Position numbers and translations under genes: made by a program
Shown: positions 6,676 to 21,292 of the stretch, one piece after another
Position numbering within the stretch: the stretch's first letter is position 1
Layout of the letters: every line of letters begins with the position of its first letter
DNA from: a virus
Reading direction: 5' to 3' (one strand)
IMG/VR virus record: IMGVR_UViG_3300010354_000819
Location: 1-21,367 of that record
DNA length: 21,367 bases
Notes under the pieces: model-generated
What the model saw: only the letters and a program-made list of their open reading frames with translations
Database searches by the model: none
Told to the model about the DNA's origin: nothing

Positions 6676-7086
6676 ATGGCAACATCTGCACAACCTTATG
6701 GAATAGTTCTACCCATAGCACATGGGCCACAAGGATTTTTCAATCAAAGTTATACCGTGGTTGATCAGGTGAAAACGAACATGAATATGCTATTGAGAAC
6801 CAAAAAAGGAGAGCGTAGAATGAATCCTGAATTTGGTTCTGGACTGTGGAGTGTATTGTTTGAAAATTATACGGATGATATTGGACCGTTAATAGAAAAT
6901 ATTATCAGAAAAGATATCGGTCGTTGGATGAGTTATGTAAGCATAAAAGAAATACAAATTTTGACCGACGATACCGAATATAGAAACAAATATAAAATTG
7001 GAGTAAAAGTTTTATTTACCGTGCCGAGTGCCGGTATAAACCAAATACAGACTTTAGAAACATCAATGACAACAGGTAATATATGA
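6676..7086 (+). CDS. 25: gp25-like baseplate wedge protein
   Basis: This is a component of the inner baseplate wedge that helps initiate sheath polymerisation; the family is shared by contractile phages, type VI secretion (TssE) and related injection machines. The 136-residue length is close to T4 gp25 (132). The diagnostic stretch reads QVKTNMNMLLRTKKGERRMN then PEFGSGLW (residues 31-58). It holds the conserved small-helix/Thr and GxRxMxPxFG elements, followed by IENIIRKDIGRWMSYVSIKE (73-92) as in family members. The gene overlaps gp6 by four bases (ATGA), which matches the functional gp25-gp6 pairing in the wedge. No SD is visible; the upstream sequence is TAAATTAAATG. Confidence 0.92.
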   Translation: MATSAQPYGIVLPIAHGPQGFFNQSYTVVDQVKTNMNMLLRTKKGERRMNPEFGSGLWSVLFENYTDDIGPLIENIIRKDIGRWMSYVSIKEIQILTDDTEYRNKYKIGVKVLFTVPSAGINQIQTLETSMTTGNI

Positions 7087-9038
7087 TACTTGATACCCAA
7101 AAATCATTTCAACCAGGAAAAAAAGATATCAAATATCTAAACAAGGATTTTACCCAATTAAAATCTTCGTTGATGGAGTTTGCAAAGAAATATTATCCGA
7201 CTACATATAAAGATTTCAGCGAAGCATCGCCGGGCATGATGTTTATAGAAATGGCAGCATATGTAGGAGATGTTCTTTCATACTATATAGATTATCAATT
7301 CAAGGAATCGATGTTGATAAATTCGGAAGAGCGTAAAAATATTATAGACGCTTCTAAATCGATGGGATACAAAGCAAAAACGACTACTCCTTCTGTTACT
7401 CGACTGGATGTATATCAGCTTGTTCCCGCGAAATCAAATGATATAGGAGAAATGGTTCCAGATTTAAACTATTCTCAAATTATAAAACCAGGAATGGTCA
7501 GTACCAGCGACTCGAATGTATCGTTTCTTACAAATTCTCCGGTAGACTTTACTGTAGACACCAAGAATGATCCACTTGAAGTGTCTGTGTTTCAAAGAAA
7601 TGCGGCTGGTCAGCCAGAATTTTTCGTACTTAAAAAGAGCGTTGATGCGTTTTCTGGTCAAATATTAACAAAAACCGTATCAATAGTAAATCCAGTTCCA
7701 TTCTATAAAATATATTTAGACGATACCAACGTCATAGAAGTGTTGGACGTATATGACTCTGACGGAAATCGCTGGTATGAGACCGAGTATCTAGCACAGG
7801 ATTTGGTGCCAATAGATTACGAAAACATATTTAAAAATGATATTACATTGTCGGCATACAGAGATACTACTCCATTCTTACTGAGATATCTTCGCACATC
7901 AAGACGATTTGTTACCGGTGTAGACGCGGATAATACTACTTTCTTGGAATTTGGTTCTGGAACAAATATCAAAGATGACGAATTAATTGTTCCAAATGTG
8001 TTTACCGTAAACAAACCCACGACATTTAGAGCGGAAAATATTTCATACGATCCATCAAATTTCTTGTCTTCGAAAGCGTTCGGTCAAGCTCCGTCGAATA
8101 CAACGCTAACAATAAGATATATTGTTGGTGGAGGAATAAATAGTAATGTAAATGCAAACTCTATAAAAAACATTAGTTCCGTTGAATTTTTCGGAGATTT
8201 GACCGCAGTCGGTGAAGCTGAATTAAACCTTACAAATTTGGTGCGACGCTCTGTAAGAGTCAACAACCCGATCCCAGCAAACGGAGGAAAAGACGCAGAA
8301 ACAAACGACGAGATAAGAAACAACGCATTAGCAAACTTTTCTTCACAAAACAGGGCAGTTACGCAAAAAGATTATGAAGTAAGAGCGTATGCAATGCCAT
8401 CCAAATATGGATCAATTGCTAAAGCATATGCTGTTACAGATACGCAACTTAATATATCAAATGTACAAGCAGTACCTTCTTCGATTCAAACCGGAAGTTT
8501 GGCACCAGGACCGGTCAACGTAGTAAACCCGGACAAAAATAATCCATTTGCTATAAATCTATATGTATTGTGCTATGATAACAACCAGAGGTTGATTGTC
8601 TCCAACGAAGCAATTCGTCAAAATCTTAAAAATTATTTGAATCAATACCGAATGCTCACAGATAGTGTGAATATATTAGACGGTTATATCATCAATGTGG
8701 GCGTCGATTTTACTATTATAACTTATAAAAATTACAATAAACGAGAAGTATTGGCGAATTGTTTGACTCTTGTTCAACAATACTTTGATATTAATAATAT
8801 TCAATTTTGCCAACCAATCAATCTAAGTAGGTTGCAGCTTGAAATAGCTAAAGTGGATGGTGTACAATCTGTAACTCAATTGAAAGTAAAAAACTTGACA
8901 TTGAAAGACGGAGATTATTCTCCATATGAGTATGATATAACGAAAGCGACTGTGGACGGGGTTGTATATCCTTCCATAGATCCTAGCGTATTTGAGGTAA
9001 AATTCCCAACCAAAGATATAGTAGGCAGAGTAGCATAA
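7083..9038 (+). CDS. 6: gp6/J-like baseplate wedge protein
   Basis: This is a core baseplate wedge subunit that forms the iris-like ring around the hub and pairs with gp25. Its 651 residues are close to T4 gp6 (660). The N-terminus (DFTQLKSSLMEFAKKYYPTT, then SEASPGMMFIEMAAYVGDVL) is the characteristic helical domain of the T4 gp6/Baseplate_J family. The J-domain hallmark appears at residues 404-436 (DAETNDEIRNNALANFSSQN followed by RAVTQKDYEVRAY). The C-terminal part alternates beta and alpha (LSRLQLEIAKVDGVQSVTQL), as in J proteins. The start overlaps the gp25 stop (ATGA), implying coupled translation. No truncation or frameshift is seen. Confidence 0.92.
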   Translation: MILDTQKSFQPGKKDIKYLNKDFTQLKSSLMEFAKKYYPTTYKDFSEASPGMMFIEMAAYVGDVLSYYIDYQFKESMLINSEERKNIIDASKSMGYKAKTTTPSVTRLDVYQLVPAKSNDIGEMVPDLNYSQIIKPGMVSTSDSNVSFLTNSPVDFTVDTKNDPLEVSVFQRNAAGQPEFFVLKKSVDAFSGQILTKTVSIVNPVPFYKIYLDDTNVIEVLDVYDSDGNRWYETEYLAQDLVPIDYENIFKNDITLSAYRDTTPFLLRYLRTSRRFVTGVDADNTTFLEFGSGTNIKDDELIVPNVFTVNKPTTFRAENISYDPSNFLSSKAFGQAPSNTTLTIRYIVGGGINSNVNANSIKNISSVEFFGDLTAVGEAELNLTNLVRRSVRVNNPIPANGGKDAETNDEIRNNALANFSSQNRAVTQKDYEVRAYAMPSKYGSIAKAYAVTDTQLNISNVQAVPSSIQTGSLAPGPVNVVNPDKNNPFAINLYVLCYDNNQRLIVSNEAIRQNLKNYLNQYRMLTDSVNILDGYIINVGVDFTIITYKNYNKREVLANCLTLVQQYFDINNIQFCQPINLSRLQLEIAKVDGVQSVTQLKVKNLTLKDGDYSPYEYDITKATVDGVVYPSIDPSVFEVKFPTKDIVGRVA

Positions 9039-9065
9039 ATATAGGTTCAATTTATTGGTTGGGAA

Positions 9066-9077
9066 CTATATTTATAA
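9066..9077 (+). promoter_or_regulatory. ATATTTAT late-promoter-like motif
   Basis: CTATATTTATAA at 9066-9077 (core ATATTTAT 9068-9075) sits 19 bases before the ATG at 9095, in a 56-base gap. This gap separates the wedge genes from the receptor-binding-type genes, a natural place for a new transcript. Confidence 0.45.
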
Positions 9078-9094
9078 TGTAAAGAATATAGCAA

Positions 9095-10435
9095 ATGCAC
9101 TACTTTTTATATCCAACTAAAGATACTTTTATAACAAATTATCCTGCCTATATGTACAAAAATATGGGGTTGGACGAACTGTTGGAAGTTGAGAAGCGAG
9201 TGTCTGGCTATAGTTGTTCAAGTACTAGTACATTTCCCATTGTAGAATATTATACCAGTTCAAGTATAGAATTGCTAAATGGTCCAAAATCAGCGTCGTT
9301 TAATTCTGGATCCACTGATCCAAATCCGGTATCCAGTTCGATCAAAACCGTTTCCGGTCCAACTACTATGGGAGCCGTTTTGTCCAGAGCACTTTTACAT
9401 TTTGATCTGTCAACGATATCTCAATCTATTGCAAATGGTCAGATAAATAGCCCAAAGTTTTTTCTCAATCTTAAAATATGTGAATCTCAAGAAATTCCAG
9501 TTCGCTACGCATTAGCTGCGTATCCTGTATCGCAGTCTTGGGCGATGGGTACTGGATATAAGAATGATGGATATTCATATTCCGATGGAGCAAATTGGAA
9601 GATTTATGATGCCGATCAAAAGTTTAAATGGTGGAATACTGGTTCGCTGACTGACTGTAGCGGCGGTGGAGTGTGGTGGCTCAATAGCTCATCTATAGCA
9701 TCTGGATCAGGATATGCAGAGTATCCAAATATTAGCCAATATAATCCATTTCCAGACTGCCCAACTAGCAGCTATGTTCCAACATCGTCCGGAATAATAC
9801 CTACTTCTGGTGCATATGCCTGCTATCAATATTTTGATTATCAGACATCTGATGTAAATATGGATGTTACCACCATAGTAAATGCGTGGCTGAAGAAAGA
9901 GATTCCAAACGAAGGATTTATTGTAATGCATAGCGACGAATCAAGTTCCGTCGATTATGCTTCTTTAAAATTCTTTAGTAAGGAAACAAACACGATATAT
10001 TCTCCATATCTAGATGTACGTTGGTACGATTCTACAATAGATACTGGAAGCGCGGATCCAATTCAGTTGAGAGATGCCGTTGTTAATATGAAAAATATGG
10101 CCAAAGAATATAAATTTGGATCAATCGTTAGAATGGATGTATCTTCTAGAAAACGTTATCCGGTAAAAACATTTACCAATAAACTTTCCGATTATTTGTC
10201 TCCGTATTATCTTCCTTCTTCGAGTTACTATCAAATAAAGGACGCGGAAAGTGAGGATACTATACTTCCGTATGACGATTATACAAGATTGAGTTTTGAT
10301 TCAAATGGAAATTATTTTATGCTAGATACTAGCGGACTTCCATCCGAAAGATATTATAAAGTAGAAATAAGAACAGAACAAAGTGGTTCTATAATGACAT
10401 TTACTATTCCAACCGCATTTAAGATTTCTAGATGA
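9095..10435 (+). CDS. DNRLRE-like beta-sandwich baseplate/fibre protein
   Basis: This is probably a virion surface protein with a lectin-like fold. The N-terminal 310 residues resemble the DNRLRE type of extracellular beta-sandwich domain. The start is YPTKDTFITNYPAYMYKNMG. Further landmarks are LSRALLHFDLSTI (96-108), a Trp/Gly/Tyr-rich middle, and the hallmark end DVTTIVNAWLKKEIPNEGFI (257-276) followed by SLKFFSKETNTIYSPYLDVR. This is the usual position where such domains read 'V..W..G...N.Gf.l....'. Residues about 313-446 form a second beta-rich domain. There is no signal peptide, as expected for a phage virion protein. Its stop overlaps the next start (ATGA). In DNRLRE proteins of bacteria the domain is associated with cell-surface adhesion; here it may bind host glycans or act as a wedge extension. 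Family assignment is moderate. Confidence 0.75.
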   Translation: MHYFLYPTKDTFITNYPAYMYKNMGLDELLEVEKRVSGYSCSSTSTFPIVEYYTSSSIELLNGPKSASFNSGSTDPNPVSSSIKTVSGPTTMGAVLSRALLHFDLSTISQSIANGQINSPKFFLNLKICESQEIPVRYALAAYPVSQSWAMGTGYKNDGYSYSDGANWKIYDADQKFKWWNTGSLTDCSGGGVWWLNSSSIASGSGYAEYPNISQYNPFPDCPTSSYVPTSSGIIPTSGAYACYQYFDYQTSDVNMDVTTIVNAWLKKEIPNEGFIVMHSDESSSVDYASLKFFSKETNTIYSPYLDVRWYDSTIDTGSADPIQLRDAVVNMKNMAKEYKFGSIVRMDVSSRKRYPVKTFTNKLSDYLSPYYLPSSSYYQIKDAESEDTILPYDDYTRLSFDSNGNYFMLDTSGLPSERYYKVEIRTEQSGSIMTFTIPTAFKISR

Positions 10436-15376: not shown

Positions 15377-16006
15377 ATGGCGTACATCGATAATACAACA
15401 ATTACAGTAGATGCGGTCCTAACAAAGAAGGGGAGAGAGCTTCTCGCAGCTAAAGGAGGGTTGAGCATCACATCCTTCGCACTATCAGACGATGAAATTG
15501 ATTATCGTTTGTATCAACCAAATCACCCTCAAGGTTCTGCATATTATGACTTGGCAATTCGTAATACTCCTGTATTTGAAGCATTCACGGATGAAACACA
15601 GGCACTTAAATATAAATTGGTAACATTGCCTTCCGGAGTAGAGTCTATACCGTTGATATCTCTGGGCCAAAGTTCTATTGACGTTGATAAGGATTATAAG
15701 GGAGAAGTTGTCATTGTTCCGTCAACAAATCCGGTATATAATACTACCTTGGGATATACCGCCGTATTGGCAAACAAGAACGTAGGAACTATTATAGGCG
15801 AGCAAATTCAGACTGCTACTACGGCTACAATCCCTACATTTATCGGAGATGTGTCATCTACTACTGCACAAGTTGCACTCGGATTGAGGTTCAGATTTGT
15901 ACCAAATAGTTCTCTTACTACCACAACAACCACAAATCTCACAGTGGTTGGAAACGAAAGTGGCGGATCTGTCACAATTCCTGTAACAGTTCGGGTAAAA
16001 TCTTAA
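15377..16006 (+). CDS. Conserved-type phage structural protein, 209 aa
   Basis: The N-terminus MAYIDNTTITVDAVLTKKGR, then ELLAAKGGLSITSFALSDDE, is of a type I recall from structural genes of large environmental phages; no biochemical function is known to me. Residues 1-60 are mixed alpha/beta with a conserved-looking SDDEIDYRLYQPNHP. Residues 75-110 are beta-rich (YKLVTLPSGVESIPLISLG). The C-terminal third is Thr/Val/Gly-rich, with a Thr-run (SSLTTTTTTNLTVVGNESGG) typical of fibre or surface beta proteins. There is no signal peptide. It lies 11 bases upstream of the first fibre-type paralog and shares its promoter. It could be a fibre adaptor or connector. The start is supported by its spacing after a promoter-like motif. 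Confidence 0.75.
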   Translation: MAYIDNTTITVDAVLTKKGRELLAAKGGLSITSFALSDDEIDYRLYQPNHPQGSAYYDLAIRNTPVFEAFTDETQALKYKLVTLPSGVESIPLISLGQSSIDVDKDYKGEVVIVPSTNPVYNTTLGYTAVLANKNVGTIIGEQIQTATTATIPTFIGDVSSTTAQVALGLRFRFVPNSSLTTTTTTNLTVVGNESGGSVTIPVTVRVKS

Positions 16007-16017
16007 AATTTTAATTT

Positions 16018-17109
16018 ATGATCTTCAAGCAATTTGAAACATCTGATATAGTGGCAGGTAGAACACAGCCTGTATCAACTGGATTGTGGAGTGATGGTAC
16101 CTCTAGTTGGAGTGAATTTTATACTAGCAGTGCGCAGACAATTTTATCTTCTTCAAGACTAGAGCCTCTAAACGGACTTTATTACACAAACGTATATGAT
16201 ACGGGATCGAATATCTCAAACTCGGATATTTACTTTTCATTGACATACGGACACTATGCTGGATCAGGAAGCTCCAATTATGATACAGGATCTTCCAATG
16301 GAAGTTTGATATTCCCTACGCAGGCAATATACAATCAATATAGAAATCTTATATTGACTCCAGCAGATACAAAATTTACATTTCAGACAGGAAGTGCCCT
16401 CCAAGATTCCGATGATATATATGTTATAGCATTTAGATCTGGAAAATATAAGGACCGTTTGGATCCAGGCCAATTCCAAATTACGCTCAGTGGATCTTTG
16501 GGAACTACTACTCTGATAGATGATTCTAGATTCAACCCAACCGTAACCGCTCAATCTGGCGGAAAGCGTTACAATATGATCCGAGGTTCTCTATCGGGCG
16601 GCGCAATTTCCACTGGATATGAGGGAATAGGAACAATGTATCCTGATTTGGGAATGGTAGTATTAAATCCTACAAAACTTAGCACTTTAATTGGGACGGT
16701 AAACGGGTATTCATTAAACAACCCAACAAGTTCAATGTGGAACGGAGAGTTTGCTACAATGCAAAACTTACTCTTTGAATCAATAAAGAAAGGTGCGGAA
16801 TCATACGGAATGCTCGCAAGAGTAACTGAGTATGTTGCTGCCAGACATTTCTTTGTTAGAGTGAAAAATCTAGAGTACAATTACTCAAACAACCCGACAT
16901 TTGTTATTTCTTCCGAAGAAGAGCCAACCAACCCACAAGATGTTGGAAAGTTGAGATTTACAGATTTCTACACCAATCCAAAAGTATATATCACGACCGT
17001 TGGTTTATATAACGAAAGTAACGACCTCGTTGCCGTAGCAAAGTTGAGCCAACCATTGCTCAAAGACTTTACCAACGAATGTCTTATCAAAGTCAAGATT
17101 GATATATAA
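16018..17109 (+). CDS. Fibre/baseplate-type structural protein, 363 aa (short paralog)
   Basis: This is probably a virion appendage protein. The start MIFKQFETSDIVAGR aligns with MIKQFSAGDITVRPF of the next large protein. The same order of landmarks follows in both: EPLNGLYYTNVY with EPINPSGKYYRNIY, IYVIAFRSGKYKDRLDPGQF with VITVAINQNSYGEKIVPNTV, LEYNYSNNPTF with GEFNYSTNPTS, and the C-terminal YITTVGLYNESNDLVAVAKL with FITTIGLYQDNQLVAIGKL. These show that the two genes are paralogs sharing N- and C-terminal scaffolds. This copy has no propeller and no dockerin-like insert, so it may be the minimal scaffold. No signal peptide and no membrane span. A small perfect hairpin lies six bases after its stop. 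Confidence 0.8.
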   Translation: MIFKQFETSDIVAGRTQPVSTGLWSDGTSSWSEFYTSSAQTILSSSRLEPLNGLYYTNVYDTGSNISNSDIYFSLTYGHYAGSGSSNYDTGSSNGSLIFPTQAIYNQYRNLILTPADTKFTFQTGSALQDSDDIYVIAFRSGKYKDRLDPGQFQITLSGSLGTTTLIDDSRFNPTVTAQSGGKRYNMIRGSLSGGAISTGYEGIGTMYPDLGMVVLNPTKLSTLIGTVNGYSLNNPTSSMWNGEFATMQNLLFESIKKGAESYGMLARVTEYVAARHFFVRVKNLEYNYSNNPTFVISSEEEPTNPQDVGKLRFTDFYTNPKVYITTVGLYNESNDLVAVAKLSQPLLKDFTNECLIKVKIDI

Positions 17110-17163: not shown

Positions 17164-20100
17164 ATGATAAAACAGTTCTCCGCAGGAGATATAACAGTAA
17201 GACCATTTAAAGCTTCTAAAAGCTGGTACGTACAGAGTATAACTACCGGATCTGTTGACGCTTATGGGTTTGACACGTATTACGATAAACGGTGTGAAAT
17301 TAACATAGGAAGGTTTATAACTTCTTCTTTTTATCCTTCTGGAAATATACATTATTCAGCAGCCGTGGAACCTATAAATCCAAGCGGAAAATATTATAGA
17401 AATATTTACAGTTTGACGGATTCGATGTTTTACAACACAGGAAACCAATATCAGTTATTCGGGGTTGAAAAATATGGTGGAGACAGTGTAACCGGAATAA
17501 AAGAAATAAGAAAAATACACGATAGAGTAATTACTGTAGCAATAAATCAAAATTCATACGGAGAAAAAATAGTACCCAACACCGTAGAAATTGTTGATAA
17601 TTCAAACGTAGATTCTTCGTTTAGAATTTTTGACGACGGTGTGACAAATTTATATATTACCGGTTCACATTTCTCATCGTATTATTCAGTCGGTGCAGTT
17701 AAAAATCTGTTAGCAAGACCATATTATGAAACTGGTTCTATTAAGTTTTACATAACATCTAGCAACGGAGAAAAAACGTATCTCACACTAAACCGTGCGA
17801 CAGAATACAAAAATATGGGGCTAAATGTTTTATATGAACAAGACAGTCTCATCTGGAAGTTTGATGAATCATACGAAAGAAATTATTTCCAACCAGAAAA
17901 TGAACATTTCGGAGAATCTGTTTCTGCTTGGTACAAATATATAGCCGTGGGAGCAAGTCGGGATCAATATAGTTTATCAACTTCAAGACAAGGATATGCG
18001 GCGATATTAAAATATGATGATTATAGTAAAACTCATAGACTAATTAAAAAATTTTATTGTCCATTCACTCAAAATGGAATAGCCCAAGAATTTTCTTCAG
18101 ATAGTTCATTTCTAACACTAATAGAAAACAATAATTTTCTGATGACTGAACAATCTGTTTTTAGTTCTTCATATTTGGAAGATAGTTTCGGGCAATCTGT
18201 TGCTGTTAAAGATAATTTTCTTGCAGTTGGATCCCCCACCGGATCAGTTTGCGTTACTACACAAACAAATTTGAGTGGATCAATGTGTTATACTAGTGGA
18301 TCTTATCCAGGATTTGTTTATGTGTATGAAAATAACAAAGGTGGAACGGATAATTGGGGGATAGTGAATATCCTGACAGGAAATACAAATAATGACAAAT
18401 TTGGATACTCATTAAGTATAGACGGAGACGTTATGGTAATTGGTGCACCTGGTGTAAGTGGAAGTAAAGGTGGAGCGTATGTATATCGCAAAAAAAATTA
18501 TTCTACAGAAACTTCCTGTAGCTATGTTACTATTACTACGGGGTCAAATCCAGGTGACTATCCTCCATATTTTGTAGGAAATACCACGTGGGTGGAAGAG
18601 GCATTTCTTACGTCTAGTGTATGGGCAACGGGGGACAAGTTTGGATGGTCCGTTTCCGTTGATTCTGGAAGTATAGTCGTCGGAACTAATAAGTATGGTG
18701 ATGGGTATGTTTCGATATACAGCTGCTCGTTGTATTCGGCCTCTCTTGGAGCTTGTCCTACCGCGTCTTGGTTAGAACAAAAACTTCTTAGAAAAGATAA
18801 TACATATGGAGATTTAAATACATCTTCACAGTTGTACGTAAATGACGTAACGTCTACAGCAATAACTTCGGACGGATATGGTAAATCTGTGGCGATCAGC
18901 TGGCCACACGTATTGGTGGGATGCGTTGCTGATAAAGCATTTATCCCATATACATCTTATACCGGCACTCCAACGTCTTTAGGTGCCACATATTTTTACA
19001 AATATAAACCGTTGTGTGGTACAGCCAGCTTCTACAAAATTAACAAAACGTTTGGAAATAGAAGTTATACAAATAATAACTTATTTTTTGGATCAAATGT
19101 TTCGATAGAAGGAAATATAGCGGCGGTTTCTTCTCGTTCCGACAAGCTAGGAAGAAACGTAGACTATATCGATGGAAATTTTGTATTGGAAGATTATTCA
19201 TATTATTCAACTTCTTCCGAAGATCCTAGAGGAGTATTAGGAAGAATTACTGTATACAACTACGATAATGTAAATGATGTTTGGAAATTGACGGGAAATA
19301 TTAAAACAAATAAGAGAGCAAATAGTCCAGCGAATATATATGGATATTCATTGGCAGTATGCTCCGATTTTCTAGTTGTAGGCGCTCCTGTTGTAAATTT
19401 TGCCTCTGCATCAGCAGCCACGTCGTCAATATATGATGTATATACTCAAGTATCATCAAGCTTCCCATCAAATTATTCTGGGTCAGTGTTTGTATACCCA
19501 CTGAGCAATTATGAAGAAAATCCTCTAGTGGGAAATATTTTTTATAAAAACGGATATTTTGTTCTGACCAACACTGCATCAAATTATTCTGGAATATTTA
19601 CAGGAACTTCTTCTTATGGGTTTGAATTAAATTACAAAGGATCTCATACCATATATGAACACGAATATCTGTGTTCAATAAAGCCGGGTGAATTTAACTA
19701 TAGCACAAATCCAACATCCTTAATTCAAAGTTCTCTTGTATTTGACGTAAATCAAGACGGTATATTTGATTTTATGGACGTAGATTTGATAATGAGATAT
19801 CTTCAAAATAAAAAATTCTTTGAGGAGTTTGTATTTGATGATAATGGCATAGTACTAGAAAAAGATACATCGAGCGATTATAGCTGGTGGGGCCGGGACA
19901 TTCTTCAAACAGAATCCGAAGATGTGCTTACATTTGAAAATGCACAAGCTGCTTACTATGCAAGTTCATCTATAAATGTATTCACAAAAACAGCATTTGA
20001 TTATATTCAATCTAATCTGGTGAACACGGGATTGCTAGATATTGACGGGGACGGAAATATAAATCTAAATGATGGAAAGATTTTGTCATTATACTATTTT

Positions 20101-20403
20101 GATAAATTAAATCCAGATGACTTGAATAGTTTATTAAGTTCAACTTCCACTAGAACATATGTCAAAGATATAGATAATTATTTAAATCATTACTGTGTTA
20201 AAAATGTCAATAAAGTTGACCCATTATTTTTAGATTATCAATATAGTTCTTCATATGACCCAACCGGCTCATATTTGGCTCCATTTATCACGACGATTGG
20301 CTTATATCAAGATAATCAGTTGGTTGCCATAGGAAAACTTGGCAGACCATTGAAGAATTTGGTCGATTGGCCACTCAATATTGTTGTTCGTTTCGACACA
20401 TAA
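17164..20403 (+). CDS. Phage adhesin/fibre with seven FG-GAP_2-type propeller blades and a split dockerin-like module, 1079 aa
   Basis: This is probably a receptor-binding virion protein. Residues 1-240 are a scaffold shared with the preceding 363-aa paralog. Residues about 245-785 contain seven blade motifs of the form [FY]G.S[VL]....(VG[AS]P): FG249, FG342, FG413, FG493, YG572, FG642 and YG726. Examples are FGQSVAVKDNFLAVGSP and FGYSLSIDGDVMVIGAP. The motifs are spaced 70-93 residues apart, as expected for a seven-bladed beta-propeller of the integrin/FG-GAP kind. Two dockerin-like calcium loops, DVNQDGIFDFMD (861-872) and DIDGDGNINLND (959-970), each followed by a helix, lie in an insert within the C-terminal scaffold (GEFNYSTNPTS at about 842 up to FITTIGLYQDNQLVAIGKL at 1041-1059). 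There is no signal peptide. Blade 6 is degenerate (VSSRS in place of VGAP). What it binds is unknown. Confidence 0.85.
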   Translation: MIKQFSAGDITVRPFKASKSWYVQSITTGSVDAYGFDTYYDKRCEINIGRFITSSFYPSGNIHYSAAVEPINPSGKYYRNIYSLTDSMFYNTGNQYQLFGVEKYGGDSVTGIKEIRKIHDRVITVAINQNSYGEKIVPNTVEIVDNSNVDSSFRIFDDGVTNLYITGSHFSSYYSVGAVKNLLARPYYETGSIKFYITSSNGEKTYLTLNRATEYKNMGLNVLYEQDSLIWKFDESYERNYFQPENEHFGESVSAWYKYIAVGASRDQYSLSTSRQGYAAILKYDDYSKTHRLIKKFYCPFTQNGIAQEFSSDSSFLTLIENNNFLMTEQSVFSSSYLEDSFGQSVAVKDNFLAVGSPTGSVCVTTQTNLSGSMCYTSGSYPGFVYVYENNKGGTDNWGIVNILTGNTNNDKFGYSLSIDGDVMVIGAPGVSGSKGGAYVYRKKNYSTETSCSYVTITTGSNPGDYPPYFVGNTTWVEEAFLTSSVWATGDKFGWSVSVDSGSIVVGTNKYGDGYVSIYSCSLYSASLGACPTASWLEQKLLRKDNTYGDLNTSSQLYVNDVTSTAITSDGYGKSVAISWPHVLVGCVADKAFIPYTSYTGTPTSLGATYFYKYKPLCGTASFYKINKTFGNRSYTNNNLFFGSNVSIEGNIAAVSSRSDKLGRNVDYIDGNFVLEDYSYYSTSSEDPRGVLGRITVYNYDNVNDVWKLTGNIKTNKRANSPANIYGYSLAVCSDFLVVGAPVVNFASASAATSSIYDVYTQVSSSFPSNYSGSVFVYPLSNYEENPLVGNIFYKNGYFVLTNTASNYSGIFTGTSSYGFELNYKGSHTIYEHEYLCSIKPGEFNYSTNPTSLIQSSLVFDVNQDGIFDFMDVDLIMRYLQNKKFFEEFVFDDNGIVLEKDTSSDYSWWGRDILQTESEDVLTFENAQAAYYASSSINVFTKTAFDYIQSNLVNTGLLDIDGDGNINLNDGKILSLYYFDKLNPDDLNSLLSSTSTRTYVKDIDNYLNHYCVKNVNKVDPLFLDYQYSSSYDPTGSYLAPFITTIGLYQDNQLVAIGKLGRPLKNLVDWPLNIVVRFDT
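17896..19518 (+). other. Seven-bladed FG-GAP_2-type beta-propeller region
   Basis: The codons cover residues about 245-785. The seven blade starts, in codon order, begin at about 17908, 18187, 18400, 18640, 18877, 19087 and 19339, and each reads F/Y-G-x-S/N-V/L. The blades lie between the two halves of the paralog scaffold, consistent with insertion as one unit. Confidence 0.75.
19744..20073 (+). other. Split dockerin-like calcium-binding module
   Basis: Two 12-residue loops with acidic or Asn residues at loop positions 1, 3, 5, 9 and 12 and Gly at 6 (D-x-N/D-x-D-G-x-[IF]-[DN]-x-x-D) occur at 19744-19779 and 20038-20073. Each is followed by a short hydrophobic helix (VDLIMRYL and GKILSLYYF). 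They are about 86 residues apart, wider than the usual dockerin spacing. Confidence 0.7.
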
Positions 20404-20439: not shown

Positions 20440-20781
20440 ATGGCAGAATTACCTTCCACACCAAGACCTTCAATGAACGAAAAGCTAGTAGATTTGTATA
20501 ACAGCATTTCTACCAGAAATAGCTCAGGCATACGTTCGCATTTAGCCAACAAAAATATCAATTCATACTCTTGGGGATTCAGCCAAAGAGCAGGCTCTCC
20601 GCAATATTTTTCAACAAACGCAATAAATGGCGCACCAGCAGGATATCCAAATGACTGGGCACAGCGCAATTTTATACCCAACCAACCACTCGGAGTAACT
20701 CAATTTACGGCAAACGGTCTTGGATACGCAAAAAATACATTGAAAATTGATACTACTGGCTACGGTAATTCGTCCAGATAA
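20440..20781 (+). CDS. Small Asn/Ser/Pro-rich probable structural protein, 113 aa
   Basis: No family is recognised. Residues 8-30 are helical (PSMNEKLVDLYNSISTRNSS). The rest is rich in Asn, Gly, Pro and aromatic residues without long hydrophobic segments (WGFSQRAGSPQYFSTNAING, PNDWAQRNFIPNQPLGVTQF), suggesting an extended surface-exposed or decoration-type protein. There is no signal peptide. It has a clear SD and its own promoter-like motif, so it may be produced abundantly. It lies between the adhesin and a nuclease gene. A minor virion protein is likely, but a specific role cannot be read from the sequence. Confidence 0.75.
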   Translation: MAELPSTPRPSMNEKLVDLYNSISTRNSSGIRSHLANKNINSYSWGFSQRAGSPQYFSTNAINGAPAGYPNDWAQRNFIPNQPLGVTQFTANGLGYAKNTLKIDTTGYGNSSR

Positions 20782-20787
20782 GTTTAT

Positions 20788-20795
20788 TATAAATG
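20788..20795 (+). promoter_or_regulatory. Weak TATAAATA-like motif
   Basis: TATAAATG differs from the T4 late consensus only at the last base. It lies in the 19-base gap before the nuclease start at 20801. It may be coincidence in A/T-rich DNA. Confidence 0.25.
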
Positions 20796-20800
20796 GTTAT

Positions 20801-21292
20801 ATGAAGGTGTTGGGGCTTGATTTATCAACTACTACTTGTGGTTGGGCTATTACAGAAAATAAAGAAATACTATCTTGTGGCTACATTGATATATCAAACG
20901 CCGAGAAGTATAAAGATAAAGCAGACCTTATTATAAAAACTCTGGTCGGTCATAGTTTTGATAAAATAATGATTGAAGAAAGCCTTTTTGGCTTTGCTGG
21001 TGGCGGCACTTCACAGCAGGTCATTATTAAACTGGTCAAGAACAAGGCTGTAGTGGGTTATATACTTGAAAATCATTATGGCGTGAGTGTAGACAGTATT
21101 CACGCACAAACTGCTCGTAAAAAGGCACTTGGGGCGGCTAGAATCAAAGGAGTAAAACCCAAAGTGTTTGTTAAAGAAAGTATTGATAAGATGTATGATA
21201 TGACCAAATGGACTGTTCTTAATAAAAAGGGGACCGAGGAGAAACGTATGGAAGATGTTAGGGATGCTATTGTCTTGAGTTTAGCGGGTTGA
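20801..21292 (+). CDS. RuvC-like RNase H-fold Holliday-junction resolvase, 163 aa
   Basis: This is probably a junction-resolving endonuclease that trims branched DNA during recombination or packaging. The N-terminus MKVLGLDLSTTTCGWAI is the first RNase H-fold strand, with Asp7. IMIEESLFGFAGGG contains Glu59/Glu60. EDVRDAIVLSLAG near the end supplies Asp152 and Asp155. This D-E-D-D order matches RuvC and phage relatives. The 163-residue length fits RuvC (about 170). I chose the ATG at 20801 because it places the first strand at the N-terminus. An upstream ATG at 20747 would add 18 unrelated residues and overlap the preceding gene by 35 bases. YqgF-type RNase H-fold enzymes are an alternative, but less likely in a phage. 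Confidence 0.82.
   Translation: MKVLGLDLSTTTCGWAITENKEILSCGYIDISNAEKYKDKADLIIKTLVGHSFDKIMIEESLFGFAGGGTSQQVIIKLVKNKAVVGYILENHYGVSVDSIHAQTARKKALGAARIKGVKPKVFVKESIDKMYDMTKWTVLNKKGTEEKRMEDVRDAIVLSLAG

Follow-up and report, generated by a model that had tools for sequence, protein, structure and literature searches.

A seven-bladed FG-GAP_2 propeller inserted into a phage scaffold suggests a modular adhesin in T4-like environmental phages

We find that a virus genome fragment of 21,367 nucleotides (the whole stretch that was analysed, here called the window) encodes a protein of 1079 amino acids in which a seven-bladed FG-GAP_2 propeller interrupts a conserved phage scaffold. The protein is best read, with a probability of about 0.68, as a modular adhesin of a T4-like environmental phage: an anchor with the propeller as an inserted head and a dockerin-like brace, probably placed at the edge of the baseplate and serving in host binding. 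The gene is composed of the following parts:

17164..20403, + strand: modular propeller protein, 1079 aa (ORF and translation; Pfam FG-GAP_2)
17164..17664, + strand: N-terminal scaffold, residues 1-167 (alignment with insert-free orthologues; strand order as in the naked model)
17665..19518, + strand: seven-bladed FG-GAP_2 propeller, residues 168-785, at site 1 between DDGxxNL and VGNIFYxNG (profile, motifs, model)
17905, 18184, 18397, 18637, 18874, 19084 and 19336, + strand: starts of the propeller motifs
19519..19737, + strand: C-terminal scaffold part 1, residues 786-858, VGNIFYKNG to EFNYSTNP (alignment)
19738..20217, + strand: second insert, residues 859-1018, helical, with two dockerin/EF-type calcium loops (Dockerin_1, PDB profile, loops)
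20218..20400, + strand: C-terminal scaffold part 2, residues 1019-1079, PFITTIGLY to VVRFDT (most conserved part)

The initial annotation had described seven FGxSV...VGAP-type motifs, and all seven are present, with first residues at 248, 341, 412, 492, 571, 641 and 725. The Pfam family FG-GAP_2 (PF14312) matches the protein in seven stretches (E 1.7e-27) and, at 95.7 bits, above its curated cut-off of 23. A strict regular expression recovered six of the seven motifs, whereas the same expression found on average 0.018 and at most two motifs in 5000 shuffled versions of the protein; chance is thus ruled out as the source of the repeat. Furthermore, seven blades are found in all 11 close non-redundant full-length relatives (41-74% identity). 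The interval that had been proposed for the propeller, 17896-19518, was correct at its end (residue 785, nt 19518), whereas the start has to be moved about 80 residues upstream, to about residue 168 (nt 17665).

AlphaFold, run without templates, predicts a closed seven-bladed propeller at residues 168-785. The mean pLDDT of the model is 74; the propeller blocks are mostly at 80-95, and a few loops and residues 888-937 have low confidence. Integrin alpha chains rank first in the structure search (Foldseek 5.9e-12), and in VIA-align the model aligns with them over the whole propeller (Z 29.7, 3.4 Å, 358 residues, model residues 168-805). Since other seven-bladed propellers (WD40) reach a Z almost equal to that of integrins, it takes the Foldseek rank together with the sequence profile to support the integrin kinship. 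In the PDB, a profile built from the window protein and its relatives, 47 sequences in all, matched integrin alpha-M at 8e-9 and integrin alpha-4 at 5e-8. The profile searches and the structure prediction by which the integrin-like FG-GAP_2 fold was to be judged thus both speak for it. We use 'integrin-like' for fold and repeat type only, because a motif scan for the calcium loops that integrins have in their later blades (D-x-D/N-x-D-G) found none in residues 168-785. The integrin FG-GAP Pfam family proper does not match the phage propeller, and the scanned window proteins contain no integrin-type domain, be it beta subunit, thigh, calf or transmembrane anchor. What remains of the protein outside the propeller is phage scaffold and the dockerin-like insert.

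This architecture of scaffold and two inserts had been absent from the initial annotation. It becomes visible in the orthologues at the same gene position, which are much shorter (304 aa in an uncultured 484-kb phage, 357 aa in Flavobacterium immuto phages and 591 aa in Microcystis phage Mel-JY01). When aligned after the inserts had been taken out, the orthologues share an N-terminal part up to DDGxGNL and a C-terminal part from VGNIFYxNG; the propeller occupies the gap between these parts, and residue 168, where it starts in the model, coincides with the edge of the gap. In the model of a naked scaffold member (286 aa, mean pLDDT 80), the strand order is identical to that of the scaffold parts of the 1079-aa model, and the two strands that flank the propeller are connected by a short turn, forming a beta-hairpin. 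Searched with Foldseek, the naked scaffold had no match with an E of 0.001 or lower; in VIA-align, its highest Z, 5.7 with a phage P1 head protein, is too weak for naming a fold. The anchor thus has no recognisable fold in these models, and its attachment to the baseplate is putative. The relatives were retrieved with scaffold profiles: peptide patterns of the whole protein retrieved none, tblastn with the propeller alone against annotated phages gave weak matches only, and no DNA-level match to the window was found among phage records. Relatives of the scaffold occur on only two MAG contigs, which leaves a bacterial origin of the scaffold unsupported.

The second insert contains calcium-type loops at residues 861-872 DVNQDGIFDFMD and 959-970 DIDGDGNINLND, each followed by a predicted helix, as in the two calcium-loop/helix motifs of type I dockerins, and the PDB profile search matched type I dockerins at 7.6e-6. 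We call it dockerin-like rather than a dockerin because the motifs are 98 residues apart, instead of forming a compact pair within about 70 residues, and because the Dockerin_1 match of the window protein (9e-4, 19.8 bits) is slightly under the cut-off of 22.9; the relatives L149 and L134 exceed this cut-off. No cohesin match was found in the scanned proteins of the 21-kb fragment. The two inserts co-occur: the distance from EFNxSTNP to TTIGLY is 167-326 residues in propeller carriers where measurable, with dockerin/EF-type loops nearly always present, and 22-88 residues in non-carriers. The sole outlier (169 residues) is L138, a frame-shifted propeller carrier. We rejected it as an exception, since a frame shift parts its propeller ORF from the C-terminal scaffold; the two ORFs lie in different frames (6980-9387), either through a frame shift or through an error in sequencing. 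As propeller carriers form a clade that arose once, the coupling of the inserts may reflect joint inheritance, and alone it would be no proof of a functional link.

The genes upstream of the propeller gene agree with the tail-gene setting that had been proposed for it:

6676..7086, + strand: gp25-like baseplate wedge protein (GPW_gp25 8.5e-11)
7083..9038, + strand: gp6/J-like baseplate wedge protein (PHROG 219 3.7e-19; Baseplate_J 3.1e-5)
15377..16006, + strand: 209-aa protein of conserved gene order, MAYIDNTTITVDAVLTKKGREL (relatives have a similar ORF in this position)
16018..17109, + strand: scaffold paralogue without propeller, 363 aa (BLASTP with both ends of the 1079-aa protein)

The window, as a 21-kb fragment, has no capsid or fibre genes of its own in view. 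T4-type Gp23 is encoded on the contigs of five of 13 relatives, including the close relative L099, which further supports this setting. Homologues of the paralogue are found in the immuto phages, Mel-JY01, the uncultured 484-kb phage and RM378, which serves as the cultured reference for the Far-T4 phages (PMC4360716). FG-GAP_2 matches are confined to one gene per relative contig. The window also encodes a peptide deformylase (1474-2091, Pfam 6.3e-28), a coiled-coil protein with an N-terminal hydrophobic stretch, a TPTATPAVTP-type repeat and no convincing Pfam match (47-1399), and a RuvC/RuvX-like resolvase (20747-21292, Pfam sub-threshold at 0.036). In L008, L127 and L138, ORFs similar to the last of these also follow the gene of the adhesin; the gene order is thus conserved past the structural genes.

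Two IMG/VR scans yielded at least 578 and at least 550 confirmed scaffold loci. Among 130 non-redundant members (129 from IMG/VR loci and the window protein), 45 carry the propeller, five a LamG domain at the same site and 80 neither, although these proportions are biased by the ranking of the loci; two of the 45 (L127 and L138) were assigned by hand, with the propeller on an adjoining ORF. As most of the sampled members are headless, the scaffold must have a role apart from its head. The LamG lectin is found in one clade and the propeller in another, both at the same hairpin turn. In the tree of the insert-free scaffold, the propeller group and the LamG group need one change each (SH-aLRT 86 and 99), meaning that the heads were acquired separately at a single site, and rarely. 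Frequent head exchange was rejected for the same reason. We further observed five tandem scaffold-type genes in Mel-JY01 (L006, 3468-12414), two of them with long N-terminal extensions, and ORFs that by eye look like homing endonucleases or TnpB-type proteins around the scaffold genes of the uncultured 484-kb phage (L008, 5841-6845, 9192-10547 and 12308-13525).

When comparing 12 close sequences, we found that the propeller has a mean pairwise identity of 0.52 and 9% indel columns, whereas the scaffold has identities of 0.61 (N-terminal) and 0.72 and 0.80 (C-terminal parts) and about 1% indel columns or less. The protein is modular, with a conserved anchor and a variable head, as expected of receptor-binding proteins. 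A fast-changing head, a slow-changing anchor and an alternative lectin head are best explained by binding to the host surface. From the fixed insertion site, the LamG alternative and the faster divergence of the head, we thus infer a surface head that binds a receptor or glycan. Scaffold residues 1-167, 786-858 and 1019-1079 would form the conserved anchor, and the propeller in its hairpin turn would have both ends fixed at the base, with the rim and one face free. The head would most likely bind a glycan or protein of the host surface at adsorption, and the second insert, with its two dockerin/EF-type loops, probably braces it in a calcium-dependent manner.

Propellers are also common protein-interaction platforms. 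The head might thus serve, at the periphery of the baseplate, as a structural element or docking site by which other fibre proteins, such as those with an S74 domain, are held or oriented, and make no host contact itself; we consider this unlikely. S74 fibre genes in two of 13 relative records, one of them from a close relative, and the headless state of most family members would fit a platform, but S74 was not found in the other 11 records, which are fragments. Furthermore, faster divergence and more indels in the head than in the anchor are less expected of an internal docking surface, and a lectin-type domain at the same site in another clade also speaks for an adhesin. Because of these S74 fibres, a second host-binding device may coexist with the adhesin, and another protein may even be the main device for host recognition.

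The scaffold is not always encoded as one chain. About 20 distant carriers have the gene split at the insertion site: a separate ORF for the N-terminal scaffold stops a few to some tens of residues past DDGxxNL, and the following ORF starts with the propeller, usually after a gap of at most about 50 nt. This suggests that the scaffold halves may be able to assemble as separate chains. In L127 (4414-11033), both scaffold halves and the propeller are each encoded by an ORF of their own, and there is a second ORF for the N-terminal scaffold. In L102 (3725-6970) and L123 (3958-6750), the ORF of the N-terminal scaffold immediately precedes that of the propeller and has an extension of MBG/YDG or PKD repeats, probably a stalk, and L149 (7001-11419) has a LysM domain in the second-insert region, next to a dockerin loop. 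Such matrix-binding, wall-binding or stalk domains would also be expected if the protein decorated the virion, on capsid or tail, and stuck generally to a polysaccharide or mucus-like matrix, without being a specific receptor-binding protein. We regard this as very improbable; the place of the gene directly after the baseplate genes suggests the tail over the capsid, and the LysM domain of L149 also counts in favour of an adhesin. A literature search for virion proteomics of the Flavobacterium immuto phages found none.

Beyond the single protein, we tentatively suggest that this widespread family of scaffolds from T4-like phages remote from T4 could be a socket whose hairpin turn takes up whole domains (propeller or LamG), also in the form of two separately encoded halves that assemble round the head. 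Such a socket would be a means of host recognition different from the long tail fibres of T4. For host recognition in the many uncultured T4-like phages that are only distantly related to T4, the family is a concrete candidate.

In phages and giant viruses, FG-GAP proteins have already been annotated or predicted, and propellers of the same type are predicted in A0A6J5S3H5 (uncultured Caudovirales), the 'hemagglutinin' of Atu_ph07 and H6WG31 of cyanophage S-TIM5; the matches to most of these proteins, however, span the propeller only. Judged by titles, the literature mentioning FG-GAP and phage contains no description of an FG-GAP phage adhesin, and in the literature searched neither the insertion site nor the pairing with a dockerin-like insert nor the gene split seems to have been described. 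Propellers of receptor-binding proteins are known from phages, with five blades in phi11 and PRD1 P2 and seven in phiKZ gp131 (PMC4901313). The C-terminal domain of gp131 (PDB 4GBF) resembles our propeller in its seven blades and its place at the periphery of a myophage baseplate, and a receptor-binding or enzymatic role was proposed for it (PMC4901313); it is, however, not inserted in this type of scaffold as far as known. Its absence among the top structural matches listed says nothing against kinship. Phi11 Gp45, a receptor-binding protein of the baseplate, likewise has a propeller as its platform (PMC4901313), but with five blades, a trimeric stem and another architecture.

The integrin alpha-chain propeller is similar in its seven blades, its FG-GAP-type repeats, its structural match over the full length and its match to the sequence profile, whereas the phage propeller sits inside a phage scaffold and has no beta subunit, thigh or calf domains beside it. 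Here, evolution has placed an integrin-type propeller in a virus as an inserted domain. The same scaffold, gene position and insertion site are found in WWT39517.1 of Mel-JY01 (L006, 10639-12414), which differs by a Laminin-G lectin domain in place of the propeller and by having no dockerin-like insert. Naturally occurring headless, lectin-headed and propeller-headed versions of one scaffold can be compared.
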